Source of the DNA: Candidatus Methanophagaceae archaeon GoMg1
GTDB lineage: Archaea; Halobacteriota; Syntropharchaeia; Alkanophagales; Methanospirareceae
Direction of reading: 5' to 3'
Assembly (NCBI GenBank): GCA_013180605.1
Contig: QBUL01000186.1
Coordinates: 1 to 50,857, forward strand
DNA length: 50,857 nt
The notes below the pieces were generated by a model, which was not told where the DNA came from, did not search any database, and saw only the letters and a program-made list of their open reading frames with translations. Below are positions 17,392 through 27,034 of the stretch, in pieces. The translations under genes were made by a program, and so were the position numbers. The stretch's first letter is position 1, and every line of letters starts with the position of its first letter.

Positions 17392-18854
17392 GATAATTCT
17401 TGATGACATCCAAAAGGGAGATGACCGTCTCTATCCCCCATATATCCAAATGGTAGCTGAGACATTGTGCAAGAAGATAGACCAGAATAGTCCGATAATC
17501 ACCAGAGAGTTCTATTTGGACCAATTAAAAGGCGCTGATAATATCATTGCACGGTATTTAATAGAGCGACTAAATGAATTTGGCTCTCAGAAAGAAAAAG
17601 CAGAAAAAGTATTGATATTTTTGACATCATCAACAGGGAAAAAAGCACAGAAAAGTTTAATCGAATTAAGCCAAGAAACCGAAATAGATGTCAATGAGTT
17701 GAAGGGAATCATGAATAAAATGATTGATCTCAGGATGGCACGAGCTGTCAGTGATGGTGAATTTGAAATAATTCATGATTATCTAGGTAAAATTATTGAT
17801 GAGGAATTAGTCAAGGAGGAAGATCGAACAATCAAGTTTCTTGAAGAACAATTGAATTCTTTTTACCAGAATTATAAAGTGCATGGAACACCTATTATGT
17901 CGCCACCTTTATGGCGAGTTTATACAGAAATATGGGAAGGATAAAAATAAGTGAAGAAAAATATCCACTTATTTTATGTACTTGTCTCTCAGAAATTGGT
18001 TTAGGTTGGTACTGGTTGAAAGATGTAGATGCTAAAAAAATGTTTGAAATGATAAAAGACCACATATCTCATGGATTGAGATATGTTAGGAATGAAGCTG
18101 TGGAGGCATTCGCAAAAATAGCGGAACCTGGGGACATGGATAAGATAATCGAGATGTTGCACGATGACAACAGGTATGTTCGGACGGCTGCTCTACGGGC
18201 ATTCGTAGAGATAGCAGAACCCGAGGACAGAAATAAGATAATTGAGATGTTGCATGACGAAGCTTGGGATGTTCGAATGGCTGCTGCTGCGGCATTTGTA
18301 AAGATAGTAGAACTTGAGGACAGGGATAAGACAATTGAGATGTCACATGACGAAGACAGGTATGTTCGGATGGCTTCCACAGAGGCACTCGGAAAGATAA
18401 CAGAACCTGAGGACAGAGATATGATAATTGAGATGCTGCACGATGAAGACCGGGATGTTCAGAGGGCTGCTGTACGGGTGTTTTTAAAAATAGCAGAACA
18501 TGAAGGACAGAGATATGATAATTGAGATGCTGCACGATGAAGACCGGGATGTTCAGAGGGCTGCTGTACGGGTGTTTTTAAAAATAGCAGAACATGAAGG
18601 ACAGGGATAAGATAATTGAGATGCTGCACGATGAAGACCGGGATGTTCAGAGGGCTGCTGCGGAGGCATTGGAAAAGATAGCTGAACCTGAGTGCAGGGA
18701 ATATCTATTAGATTTATTAGCTGACGAAGCACAGGGTTGGAGTGTAAAACAAAGGAACATTTTTGAATCATTGTCAAAGTTGGATAGAAAACTATACTGC
18801 CCCTACTTTAAAGATGAAGAGGATATGTGGAAGAGGAGCGCATTTCGAGTTTAA
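17390..18854 (+). pseudogene. HEAT-repeat protein with winged-helix-like N-terminal part (remnant of a STAND-type NTPase?), split over three frames
   Basis: DDIQKGDDRLYPPYIQMVAETLCKK... then frame change near 17905-17944, HEAT-like 31-aa units, then two +1 changes inside 94-bp duplications. Confidence 0.75.
18421..18608 (+). repeat. Tandem duplication, 94-bp unit x2, inside a 93-bp HEAT repeat array
   Basis: ataattgagatgctgcacgatgaagaccgggatgttcagagggctgctgtacgggtgtttttaaaaatagcagaacatgaaggacag repeated; unit starts at 18421, 18515, 18609. Confidence 0.95.
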
Positions 18855-21690: not shown

Positions 21691-22007
21691 AATCAGGTGC
21701 CAGTGCCGGGGTAGGAGTAGGAGTAGGAGCAGTTCCCTTAGGGACTCCTCTGCTCGCCGGTCCATGCGCTATAACGGCTGTTATGGTGATAATACAATCT
21801 TATGAAAAAATTATTACGGGGGCTTTTGTGGTTCTTTTTGCTATTTTCTCCGCTATTATCGCAACAAGGCTCGTATTAGGGCAATCAGAAAGGATATATC
21901 AGGTACTGGGGGAAGTAGGGTCGGAAGTGTTGAGCCGTGTAATGGGGATAATCGTTGCGGCAATTGCGATACAGTTTATTGCGGGAGGGATAAGGGGGAT
22001 GTTTTAA
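21660..22007 (+). pseudogene. MarC-family membrane protein, C-terminal half only
   Basis: Reading GAVPLGTPLLAGPCAITAVMVIIQSYEKI...VMGIIVAAIAIQFIAGGIRGMF*; no N-terminal TM segments. Confidence 0.7.
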
Positions 22008-22264
22008 CACTTTTTCTTAAAAAGAAAACCTGTACTAAAAAATGTTTTATTTAGCTCACGGGTGATTTCGACTGCTTTTGGGTCATTCAAAATTGAGTCC
22101 TTTGATTGACTTTCAATGGCGTGGCAATACAAGGTAACAAATGAGGTTTCGGCAACATCACCAATATTTATGTTCATAAATATTCATCCCCCGTCATTCT
22201 TTGATCCATAGCTAACTAAAATAGTCCATTTAAATGTTTTTCTAAGCAGGTATATAACGGCCAA

Positions 22265-23095
22265 TTATTTAATGTGTTCTTCAGAACTCTGGATTAGCTT
22301 CTCTATATTACCTGAAAGATCAATTATATCTCCCCACGTAGTTCCAGAGACTATGTCTTGTGAATGGGCAAGTTTGTCCCTTAAGCTTTCAACATCTTCA
22401 AGAATTTTTGAACCTGCGCTTTTCGATTCGAAACCAAAAACATTACGAATTTTATCCGAGGACAAAACTAATTCCCTCTTATCACAAAATTGTAGACAAT
22501 CCATAAAGCCCAATCTCTCATTCCTTTCGATACGCATATTCATAAGGTGTTCTGCTTTTTCGATTCGATCTGGACTCAATTTGGTACGCAATTCTTTGTC
22601 CGTATAAAATTTTCTAATATGGTGTGTTAGATGCATTTCAAGTAAAGTTATCAGTCCAAAAAGCATAATTCGAACAGGTGGTTTTTGTAAATCCGCACGA
22701 GTAATTATGCTATCAACCGAATTTCCTGAAAGTACAAATACGTGCTGTTTTTCTCGAAGAATATGCAACACCTCAATTAATGGAGTCGAATTAGAGATGA
22801 GATCAGACAGTTGAAATTTATGTGTAAAGCTCCCACATTTACCTTTGGTCAATTCTGATGAATTTATGTATCCGATTACCGGTTCATCGTTGGATTTTTT
22901 TATACCCATTGTATTAAAGTAAAGTTTGTCCATTTTATTTAAAATGCTAATGGCATCATCTTCGTAAATGCATGATTGGAGGGGTTCATTTATTGAAGAA
23001 GCGGTAATTCCGAACATAAATAATTCACGTAATTCCAAAACACTTGTACCCCTCCGTCTATATCCATTCCTTCTTGAAACCCAGAGATCTCTCAT
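22265..23095 (-). CDS. CBS-pair-like protein with C-terminal HEPN-like helical domain
   Basis: LIEVLHILREKQHVFVLSGNSVDSIITRADLQKPPVRIMLFGLITLLEMHL CBS-like; ESLRDKLAHSQD contains an Rx4H motif. Confidence 0.65.
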   Translation of the reverse strand: MRDLWVSRRNGYRRRGTSVLELRELFMFGITASSINEPLQSCIYEDDAISILNKMDKLYFNTMGIKKSNDEPVIGYINSSELTKGKCGSFTHKFQLSDLISNSTPLIEVLHILREKQHVFVLSGNSVDSIITRADLQKPPVRIMLFGLITLLEMHLTHHIRKFYTDKELRTKLSPDRIEKAEHLMNMRIERNERLGFMDCLQFCDKRELVLSSDKIRNVFGFESKSAGSKILEDVESLRDKLAHSQDIVSGTTWGDIIDLSGNIEKLIQSSEEHIK

Positions 23096-23147
23096 TGTTT
23101 CACCTCCTACCTTTTCATCTAAGATGTAGCAATTTTAATTGACTGCC

Positions 23148-23212
23148 GTACAACGTTCCGAGCGTATCTGGCGAAGTGCCGAAGGCACGTAGCCAGATAC
23201 GCTCGGTTAAGT
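23148..23212 (-). other. attC-like structured site / long hairpin
   Basis: On minus strand ACTTAAC-CGAGCGTATCTGGC-tac-GTGCC-ttc-GGCAC-ttc-GCCAGATACGCTCG-gaac-GTTGTAC; 15-bp arms 23158-23172 / 23192-23206 are perfectly complementary. Confidence 0.6.
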
Positions 23213-23221
23213 GATGTCGGC

Positions 23222-23599
23222 TCATTGAAATACCTCGTCCAAATTTTTTGCATTCTTTAACTTGTCGAATGTTGTATATCTAGGTGCTTGTGGGGCTTTC
23301 ACTTCCCCCTTGGGTTTAGGAATTAATTTTAAAGGCATTATTTCGTTTGCTTGATCCTTGAAATAAACGATGAATTTATCAGTATCGTTATATCTCTCAA
23401 TTTTGGAGACTTCCGCATAATGTGTTATGGCTGATGTTGGAGCTGTTTGATAACCTGCAATTTTCTTAATATCAATATAAATGGCTTCTTCTCCAAATAA
23501 TTCTTGGGAATGGATGATAACCTCTTTTCCAAATTCTTCTTCCAAGTCCCATAAATACTGCATATAGACTTTCCCATTTATTAGCAAATTTTCCATCAT
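23222..23599 (-). CDS. Small PUA/EVE-like protein
   Basis: 125 aa; ITHYAEVSKIERYNDTDKFIVYFKDQANEIMPL...APRYTTFDKLKNAKNLDEVF resembles PUA-like fold proteins. Confidence 0.6.
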   Translation of the reverse strand: MMENLLINGKVYMQYLWDLEEEFGKEVIIHSQELFGEEAIYIDIKKIAGYQTAPTSAITHYAEVSKIERYNDTDKFIVYFKDQANEIMPLKLIPKPKGEVKAPQAPRYTTFDKLKNAKNLDEVFQ

Positions 23600-23989
23600 T
23601 ACCCTCCTTCTCAGTTAATTGAGCCGATTTTACTTAACTCCGTTATATCCGAACTCGAGTTCGCATAGACCGCCCTTTAACTGAAACTTCCGAATCATTT
23701 TTTACCGCCTGGTTTTTAAATAGATGCATGCCTATAAATACCCTTTATTTATATTTTTGCAATGACGCATAGCGTCTTACAAGTAAAAGAAATCCATCTT
23801 TTTTCTTTTTAGTTGAGTTTTCCATATTCTTCTCACCTCAATACCTCAAAACCTCAAACCATGCCCCAAACAAGAGCAATGCTAAAATATAATTACCAAC
23901 TGCAACATGAAGCATGCTTTTATGATTTAACAAGACAACAAAATCGAAAAGCTTTTTATTTATGTAGCCCCCACATAACTTTATGGGGA

Positions 23990-24800
23990 ACATAGAAGGG
24001 TGGACGAGAAGTTGGTTGGAAAATCAGCGACACGCGGGTCAAAGAACTATGTCTATCATTCAACCAGTCGTTACGATAAAGAGATAAAAAAGGTAGTAAA
24101 GTGTCAAAATACCCCGGAAGACTCGACAAAGAACGGGGATTTATTCTAAAGGGGCGAAATAAGCATGAGCATAAGTATGTCGCGAGTCTGCGAAATATTA
24201 CCGAATACGGTAATTCGATGCTGCTACACGGAAGGATGCAGGACATCAAACCTGTGTTGAAAGAGGGTTTTTCCGACCACTGGTAGGAAATCTGCGCTCT
24301 TACTATGGTGCGTGCTTCTGGCAATGTCCCATTAAAACGTGCGAAAGATGCATGGGTGAAATTATACAACGCCGACGATGCTAAACCGAACCTAAATCCA
24401 AAGAATCTCTCTCTTCGAGGATCAGGACCTCCGACTAGAAGAGCAGAAGACCGGGCACAGGAAAAAGGCTGAGCGCAAGATAGAGAAGAAAAAATTCGAT
24501 GAGGGTATGAAGAAGGCAGGGAAGATCCTTATTCTCTCGGATATGGATGTCGAGAAGCAGGAGATATATCTGCTCTACAAGAAACGAGAAGTGGTTGAGA
24601 AGATGTTTAACACGTACAAGACGGTGCTTAATGCGGACAAGCTCTACCTGCAGGGCGATGAAAGTGCCTTTGGACACATGTTTGTCGCGTTTCTTTCACT
24701 CTATATCCACTGTAAACTGGAGCAGCTCTTAAAGAAAGCAAAACTCAATCATAAGATCACGCCGATTGACCTGCTATTCAAATACAGCAAGGTCTACCAT
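23990..24800 (+). mobile_element. Degenerate IS1634/IS4-like DDE transposase remnant
   Basis: Broken frames: GSKNYVYHSTSRYDKEIKKVV, KYPGRLDKERG, then QEIYLLYKKREVVEKMFNTYKTVLNADKLYLQGDESAFGHMFVAFLSLYIHCKLEQLLKKAKLNHKITPIDLLFKYSKVY. Confidence 0.75.
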
Positions 24801-25016
24801 CCTGAGGTCAAGTCCCAAATCATTGGACATCTCATACATATAAGCAGTTTCATGACTCTTTAAATAACCATCCACCATGTTTTTAGCCTCTGAATATGGA
24901 ACGTCCTTTAACACCACTATCTTTTCAATGACCTCTCCTGATTTGCTCCTTTTAATTTCTTTAAGCTTACAATATATTATTGACATAACAATACATAAAA
25001 GCTTTTTGATTTTCAT
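24774..25016 (-). pseudogene. Short ORF whose 3' end runs into antisense transposase sequence
   Basis: KLKEIKRSKSGEVIEKIVVLKDVPYSEAKNMVDGYLKSHETAYMYEMSNDLGLDLRMV then antisense transposon residues. Confidence 0.45.
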
Positions 25017-25089
25017 ACTATTAGGAAAGGAGTATAACGGAAAAACATTTTAAAAGAAAAAAAACAGAATAGTAAAAAATGCCTTTGAT

Positions 25090-25164
25090 GCCTCGGTAGC
25101 TTAGCTTGGTTTGAGCGGCTGATTTGTAATCAGCAGGTCGAGGGTTCAAATCCCTCCCGGGGCT
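25090..25164 (+). tRNA. tRNA-Thr (anticodon TGT)
   Basis: GCCTCGG/CCGGGGC acceptor stem, anticodon arm GGCTGATTTGTAATCAGC, GGGTTCAAATCCC T arm, U discriminator; CCA not encoded. Confidence 0.95.
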
Positions 25165-25294
25165 TTAACCCCCCAGATTACACAGATTCTCACGAGCCCA
25201 CGACAATAGGGCTGGGTTTTCCTTTGGCTATTCTAACATCCATTGCTTCTTTTTCTTGCTCCTGCTGGCACTATCTAAAAATACAGTGATTTAT

Positions 25295-25400
25295 CACCGC
25301 GGAGGGCGCAGAGTACGCAGAGTTTTAAAACTGTTCCAATCATTGCTCAGGTTTTCTGGTGCCTTTGCGTTCTCTGTGTGCTCTGCGGTGAAATTTAAGG
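25295..25400. repeat. cgcagag/ctctgcg inverted-repeat element
   Basis: caccgcggagggcgcagagtacgcagag ... gcgttctctgtgtgctctgcggtgaaatttaag; related copy at 34666-34820. Confidence 0.7.
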
Positions 25401-25513
25401 GTTTAGCAATTTCACTAGAAAATTCGACAGTGCCCTCCTGCTATACAAATACGGTTTAGGGATTTGTAACCCTCACTAAACCACTAAACCACTAAACCGC
25501 TATCTTCCCCTTC

Positions 25514-26827: not shown

Positions 26828-26862
26828 GCTCACTATTAGGCTTTTTGTGAAAATAAATCGTT

Positions 26863-26982
26863 GACACAGATTAACGCAGATTAACACAGATGCTAAGAAT
26901 CAACACGGTTAAACTAAAATAAATCCGTGTAAATCCGTAAAAATCTGTGTCTCAAATAGAAGAATGTTATACTTTATATACA
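26863..26982 (+). repeat. Dispersed inverted-repeat element (copy E4)
   Basis: gacacagattaacgcagattaacacagatgctaagaatcaacacggttaaactaaaataaatccgtgtaaatccgtaaaaatctgtgtctcaaatagaagaatgttatactttatata. Confidence 0.75.
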
Positions 26983-27034
26983 ATAAATAATCTTGTGTAA
27001 ATCTGCGTAATCTTGTGGTTACTTTTCAGAATGC

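Follow-up and report, generated by a model that had tools for sequence, protein, structure and literature searches.

A probable decayed integron in an ANME-1 chromosome, and the XerA-like recombinase that accompanies its relatives

A variable locus between MarC and tRNA-Thr

Does a short open reading frame set between inverted core motifs and followed by a long hairpin mark an integron in an archaeal chromosome, and, if so, which recombinase goes with it? Both questions are raised by one segment of the window (the whole 50,857-nucleotide stretch of DNA analysed here), for which an integron-cassette architecture had been predicted from the letters alone. All motifs and the hairpin quoted in that original prediction were found at their positions, and on the minus strand the elements follow one another in the order attI-like palindrome, GTTAAGT, 125-aa ORF, ACTTAAC, hairpin, GTTGTAC, CBS/HEPN-like ORF, GTTATAT, truncated methyltransferase-like ORF and, on the opposite strand, a MarC fragment. 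We regard the segment as very probably an allele, now decayed, of an integron in the chromosome of a Methanophagales (ANME-1) archaeon, composed of an attI, a cassette 1 with its attC, an attC-less cassette 2 and a truncated cassette 3.

The left-hand landmark of the locus is the 3′ fragment of a MarC gene (21783-22007, plus strand; Pfam MarC E 6.4e-13, model positions 132-203 of 203), and the right-hand landmark is a tRNA-Thr(TGT) gene (25090-25164, plus strand), the sole match in an Rfam scan of the window. The variable segment between them (22004-24965) holds the cassettes, the attI and transposase remnants, one of which is DDE_Tnp_1-like (24507-24863, plus strand; Pfam E 2.7e-4, under the cut-off) and lies between attI and the tRNA gene. 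The whole segment is missing from the sister genome G002, in which 21705-22003 (MarC) is joined directly to 24966-25167 (tRNA-Thr), leaving an empty locus. In the relatives G004 and G005, the MarC/tRNA-Thr interval keeps the orientation of the window and contains a recombinase tail adjoining the tRNA, an attI, a different cassette and an attC. Given that the locus is empty in one relative and has other contents in two more, the window shows one of the alleles of an integron locus that varies and is not fixed, which is the outcome that the original prediction had looked for in relatives. Searches with the locus against phage and plasmid DNA returned no matches.

The attI-like palindrome TATGCGAACTCGAGTTCGGATATAACGGA and its core GTTAAGT (23638-23632) occupy 23632-23667 on the minus strand and form the junction of attI and cassette 1. 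When the window was searched with a profile built from 17 attI sites adjoining recombinases in genomes other than this one, the best match (23667-23635, E 8.6e-7; next best 0.077) ended on the GTTAAGT already noted in the prediction. The reading of this motif as a cassette start is borne out by the match of the cassette ends, and what had not been foreseen is that it also ends an attI. Seven more loci of the own genome match the profile, and in the nine attI modules checked (eight from the own genome, window included) the cassette start after attI matched the end of the first cassette at 8 to 11 of 12 positions in every case. A leader ORF of 22 codons (MIRKFQLKGGLCELEFGYNGVK; 23630-23698, minus strand), read from the sequence, overlaps attI, and short ORFs of a similar kind overlap attI at the GLR107 and G017 loci too. 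In relatives, palindromic repeats lie downstream of a tyrosine recombinase gene and end in forms such as GGATATACCGAA|GTTRRRY, so that attI adjoins the integrase gene and cassettes stand at its GTTRRRY; the window retains attI and, as the prediction had observed, has no integrase gene, the recombinase surviving as tails in G004 and G005.

The 125-aa ORF of cassette 1 (23222-23599, minus strand), taken at first for a small PUA-like gene, found no such support in Pfam and turned out to be what an internal, in-frame deletion has left of a 336-aa gene; the gene is full length in GLR107 and G008, relative to which about 627 nt (about 209 codons) have been lost. In G008 the gene follows another attI-like sequence and has different neighbours, with homology stopping at GTT. 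Nothing informative was obtained for the ORF or the cassette 1 gene in Pfam, NCBIfam, PADLOC or PHROGs, and by eye the product of the 336-aa gene resembles PD-(D/E)XK nucleases (IPDGYLIDFS...RLYIVENELS).

Cassette 2 (22265-23154, minus strand) begins at GTTGTAC (23154-23148) and contains the CBS/HEPN-like ORF (22265-23095), whose protein gave weak Pfam matches (CBS E 0.14, HEPN_RiboL-PSP E 0.023) and whose gene had no copy in other genomes of the family (51 family genomes searched). The prediction had listed GTTGTAC behind the hairpin as a GTTRRRY with one mismatch; the motif is there, but it opens the following (HEPN) cassette, and no pairing with ACTTAAC is therefore to be expected of it. 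The prediction had also seen no clear second attC behind the CBS-HEPN gene, and the attC of cassette 2 is indeed missing. The truncated cassette 3 (22004-22258, minus strand) begins at GTTATAT (22258-22252) and retains the 5′ part of a SAM-methyltransferase-like gene (assigned by eye); it is 89.6% identical over 211 nt to L037 1433-1641, and in G059 the methyltransferase-like gene sits immediately downstream of an attC. The window copy is thus decayed, its recombinase gone, the attC lost from cassette 2, cassette 3 cut off and the cargo internally deleted, and it would have no activity in cis. With a single attC, the window alone falls below the two-attC rule of surveys.

Other repeats occur in the window as well. 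A repeat of about 170 bp at 25266-25435 has many dozens of copies in this genome and in others of the genus, and since it is missing at the matching position of G003 and G005, it is a separate, recently mobile element. A second dispersed repeat of about 140 bp (26849-26991) has many copies within the genus, and at 17911-18854 two adjacent ORFs are built of the repeated motif MLHDEDRDVRxAA..., HEAT-like by eye.

The attC family and the recombinase beside attI

The attC of cassette 1 (23145-23215, minus strand) consists of R″ ACTTAAC (23212-23206), a 15-bp stem, a 5-bp terminal hairpin and the 3′ spacer GGAAC, followed by GTT, and is a short form without a second terminal hairpin. Its arms (23158-23180 and 23184-23206) are 91% complementary, and its folding was matched by none of 200 shuffles (z -6.4). 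The own genome has another copy (C57), of the textbook form GCCTAAC - hairpin - GTTAAGT behind a 432-aa ORF, and BLAST found hairpin copies in 45 of 51 family genomes. We built a covariance model, R1, from 26 full copies with the window copy left out; its consensus reads TTCGCCTAAC-A-GAGCGTATCTG-(two small hairpins)-CAGATACGCTC-GGAAC-GTTAGGCGAA, and both inner hairpins show compensatory changes. R1 gave the window site a score of 62.9 bits (genome-wide E 8.9e-14), far above background, and located 21 further sites in the own genome, one additional hit being the window site on its opposite strand. The two checks suggested in the prediction, an attC model and a search for more copies, thus both speak for an integron-cassette architecture, as does the variable locus, and a chance hairpin is not compatible with a related copy elsewhere in the genome and an E-value of 9e-14 from a model of other copies.

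Within the Methanophagales/ANME-1 family, R1 detected 649 sites (table sum) in 50 of 51 genomes. Among 120 genomes sampled from the phylum, 80 had no site at E 1e-4, and the positive genomes belong mostly to few families and include the single-contig genome G035, the presence of sites in which makes contamination unlikely. Two exact attC patterns had no matches in viral contigs.

The sites are polar, with R″ and R′ cores flanking an imperfect palindrome and the GTT core beyond the hairpin conserved across copies. The 11-bp stem carries no extrahelical bases and is perfectly paired in about half of the 26 sites, whereas canonical attC sites have two or three extrahelical bases on the R″-L″ arm (PMC2727003), an arrangement that these 26 sites lack. 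An unpaired central spacer is present but lopsided, 1 nt against 5 nt in 25 of the 26 sites; the 4-nt asymmetry of the stem, at first listed as a weak point, is therefore a constant feature of the family. The terminal structure varies between one and two hairpins.

In G023, a recombinase gene, an attI and five attC sites stand in one row, and comparable units of recombinase, attI and cassettes are present in G062, G080, G104 and the single-contig genome G035. On the contigs where both were listed, all 17 listed attC sites that share a contig with the recombinase lie downstream of it on the same strand, and in relatives the gene or its remnant is found repeatedly directly upstream of attI. Many family genomes contain the gene, mostly as fragments (36 of 51 genomes by a count that includes a more distant Xer-like paralogue), and it is intact or near-intact in G018, G062 and G020. 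The own assembly (189 contigs, 86% complete) yielded fragments only and no intact recombinase of this type; most assemblies of relatives are fragmented too. In viral contigs, only distant relatives of the recombinase were found.

The recombinase scored 233-256 bits against NF040815 (archaeal XerA; cut-off 220) and 202-239 bits against TIGR02249 (integron integrase; cut-off 265), with model positions of about 180-232 unmatched, while the IntI1 control matched TIGR02249 in a single stretch with 505 bits. In every member, 92 residues separate GLRxxE from HxLRH, as against 133 in IntI1, which makes the interval about 41 residues shorter. Alignment with the IntI4 structure 2a3v left residues of about 173-238 unmatched, and no IntI-sized gap opened against XerA structures. 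The IntI-specific domain with the I2 helix around patch III is accordingly not found in this recombinase, and from published descriptions of the IntI domain and of I2 (PMC9668308, PMC7790495) the missing region would correspond to the I2-helix region. The protein encoded directly upstream of attI in relatives is an XerA-like tyrosine recombinase with an N-terminal extension, and it is most likely the enzyme that joined in the cassettes. This extra segment, about 60-75 residues long, gives weak HARP matches (PF07443) below the cut-off of 25 bits in 3 of 8 members, the best with 15.5 bits and E 0.013, and may possibly be a single-strand annealing domain. The segment, which contains the motif GYRWHPEEKYWSIP (first 75 codons of L062 1-1041, minus strand; also in L061, L060, L064 and L180), has a weak likeness to HARP or DUF5710.

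A similar arrangement was found on a Chryseobacterium plasmid, where a recombinase homologue (41% identity over 96% of its length, also with the 92-residue spacing) precedes a row of three cassettes. Their starts and ends agree at 12-13 of 14 positions, and their attC sites have the 1/5 spacers seen in the archaeal family. R1 had no match on this locus, the attC sequences there being different. The same plasmid array includes an IS110-family transposase gene and a 188-nt multi-hairpin element repeated between cassettes with 97% identity (L180 7128-7315 and 9223-9410).

Could the cassettes instead be moved by a canonical IntI with an I2 helix acting in trans, the XerA-like protein being a chromosome-dimer resolvase or a bystander? 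Archaeal IntIs with the extra domain are known from other phyla (PMC9668308), and the own genome has no intact recombinase. The IntI search proposed in the prediction, on the other hand, gave no TIGR02249 match over the cut-off, either in the own genome (weak matches at loose E occur in all 14 control genomes too) or in any of the 51 family genomes; what adjoins attI in relatives, again and again, is the I2-less gene or its remnant, and the arrangement recurs on the Chryseobacterium plasmid. We thus judge a trans-acting IntI unlikely and retain the XerA-like recombinase as the most likely enzyme of the system.

Cassette ends and cargo

In the fetched loci, adjacent sites less than 4 kb apart lie on the same strand in 61 cases and on opposite strands in none. 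Of 62 cassettes, 58 have their longest ORF on the same strand as the attC; the cassettes mostly contain one gene and have a median length of 976 bp, so that the family has tandem cassettes of one orientation, each closed by an attC, of which one attC is left in the window. Their cargo includes DNA methyltransferases, TIR, HicA, HepT and one Cass2 (in Pfam, an integron-associated effector binding protein). One cassette of about 3.5 kb after an attI (L060 1500-5114, G062) carries a 960-aa ORF between matching ends, GTTAGACGC and GCGTCTAAC.

The prediction had noted that GTTAAGT and ACTTAAC are exactly complementary, as expected of an excised circle. For each of 62 cassettes we set the six variable bases that follow GTT at the start against the complement of the six that precede AAC at the end, and on average 5.11 of 6 agreed, against 3.48 ± 0.13 for permuted partners; none of 20,000 permutations reached the observed value, in a test that counts cassettes as independent and keeps related ones in. 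The same comparison across one hairpin, with the own-site partner, gave no signal (3.27 against 3.29 permuted). A start-end match that holds within the cassette and not across the hairpin indicates that each unit was once a one-attC circle cut at the core. The agreement begins at position 4 and continues to about 17, interrupted at 10-11, and represents an outer helix, to which the outward symmetry TCGGCTCA/TGAGCCGA remarked on in the window belongs as a family-wide feature.

This comparison bears directly on the alternative offered in the prediction, a MITE-like small transposable element with terminal inverted repeats that captured a gene, the hairpin being an unrelated terminator or a second element. 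A 24-nt inverted repeat does surround the ORF (23206-23229 and 23615-23638, 79% complementary). A transposase, however, needs constant ends, and here the ends vary between cassettes and match only inside one; the same-strand arrays with mostly one gene between sites and the attI-like sequence ahead of the first cassette also argue against such an element, which we consider very improbable. Even less probable are REP-like hairpins serving as transcription terminators or RNA stabilisers and spread by an IS200/IS605-like transposase, since the position of the hairpins 3′ of genes and their scatter over the genome would fit, but the cassette start-end match, the GTT core beyond the hairpin, the attI and the linked recombinase would be left unexplained. 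On the strength of the cassette-end comparison we reject both the TIR-transposon and the terminator readings.

Beside what is established for the integron reading (the site family and its polarity, the cassette-end signature, attI beside the recombinase, the complete units in relatives and the empty site), we propose a mechanism in which attI would be the entry point for cassettes, and cassettes would be joined by recombination at the GTT core, either attI x attC or attC x attC. The outer attC arm of each cassette would thereby be split, half of it standing at the cassette start and half at the cassette end. The recombinase, supplied in cis or from elsewhere in the cell, would join circular cassettes or single strands of them at GTT, and its substrate is probably attC folded as a single strand. 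That the integron recombines at all is a deduction from these arrangements.

Comparison with known integrons and with XerA

Integrons in archaea have been known since 2022, when Ghaly et al. reported them from 75 MAGs representing nine phyla and detected six IntI (PMC9668308); what is new here is the association of an I2-less XerA-like recombinase with attC sites without extrahelical bases. The I2 helix has been described as the innovation that enables integrases to recombine single-stranded attC, which it recognises via extrahelical bases, and Xer proteins are without it (PMC7790495); an attC stem without extrahelical bases is consistent with a recombinase without I2. We lean towards a distinct integron class, represented in ANME-1, other archaeal families of the phylum and at least one Bacteroidota plasmid, in which an I2-less Xer-type recombinase with an extra N-terminal domain would act together with a folded attC whose lopsided spacer and extended outer helix replace the extrahelical bases. 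If so, the class would either have arrived independently at single-strand cassette recombination or preserve a state that preceded I2, and a cassette system with an I2-less recombinase would make the origin of integrons directly testable. For the methane-oxidising ANME-1, sites in 50 of 51 species genomes would amount to a pervasive gene-capture system, and R1 offers a concrete means of detecting sites that would escape criteria based on the integrase. Full-text literature searches, whose scope excluded subscription journals, preprints and supplements, returned no paper that brings together Methanophagales and integrons, nor any that treats attC and integrons together with archaea and Halobacteriota.

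The archaeal integrons and CALINs of PMC9668308 share with the present system the attC arrays in archaeal MAGs, the position of attI directly behind the integrase gene, the use of the canonical core site for insertion and the predominance of integrase-free arrays. Their IntIs, however, are described with an IntI-specific domain around patch III (three of the six were set aside because they were short or covered the domain in part), which the recombinase here lacks. The main text of that study makes no mention of ANME, Methanophagales or Halobacteriota.

With VCR-type bacterial chromosomal integrons carrying IntI, the system has in common an attI, one-way cassettes, RYYYAAC/GTTRRRY cores, a folded attC with variable terminal structure, and clade-wide attC similarity. 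It differs from them in the absence of extrahelical stem bases, the 1-nt and 5-nt spacers, the pairing of cassette ends to about position 17, the several small attI units per genome and the I2-less recombinase. As for XerA (NF040815), the recombinase passes the cut-off of the model and aligns to XerA structures without an IntI-sized gap, but unlike XerA it has about 60-75 extra N-terminal residues, and its gene is followed by attI and cassettes.
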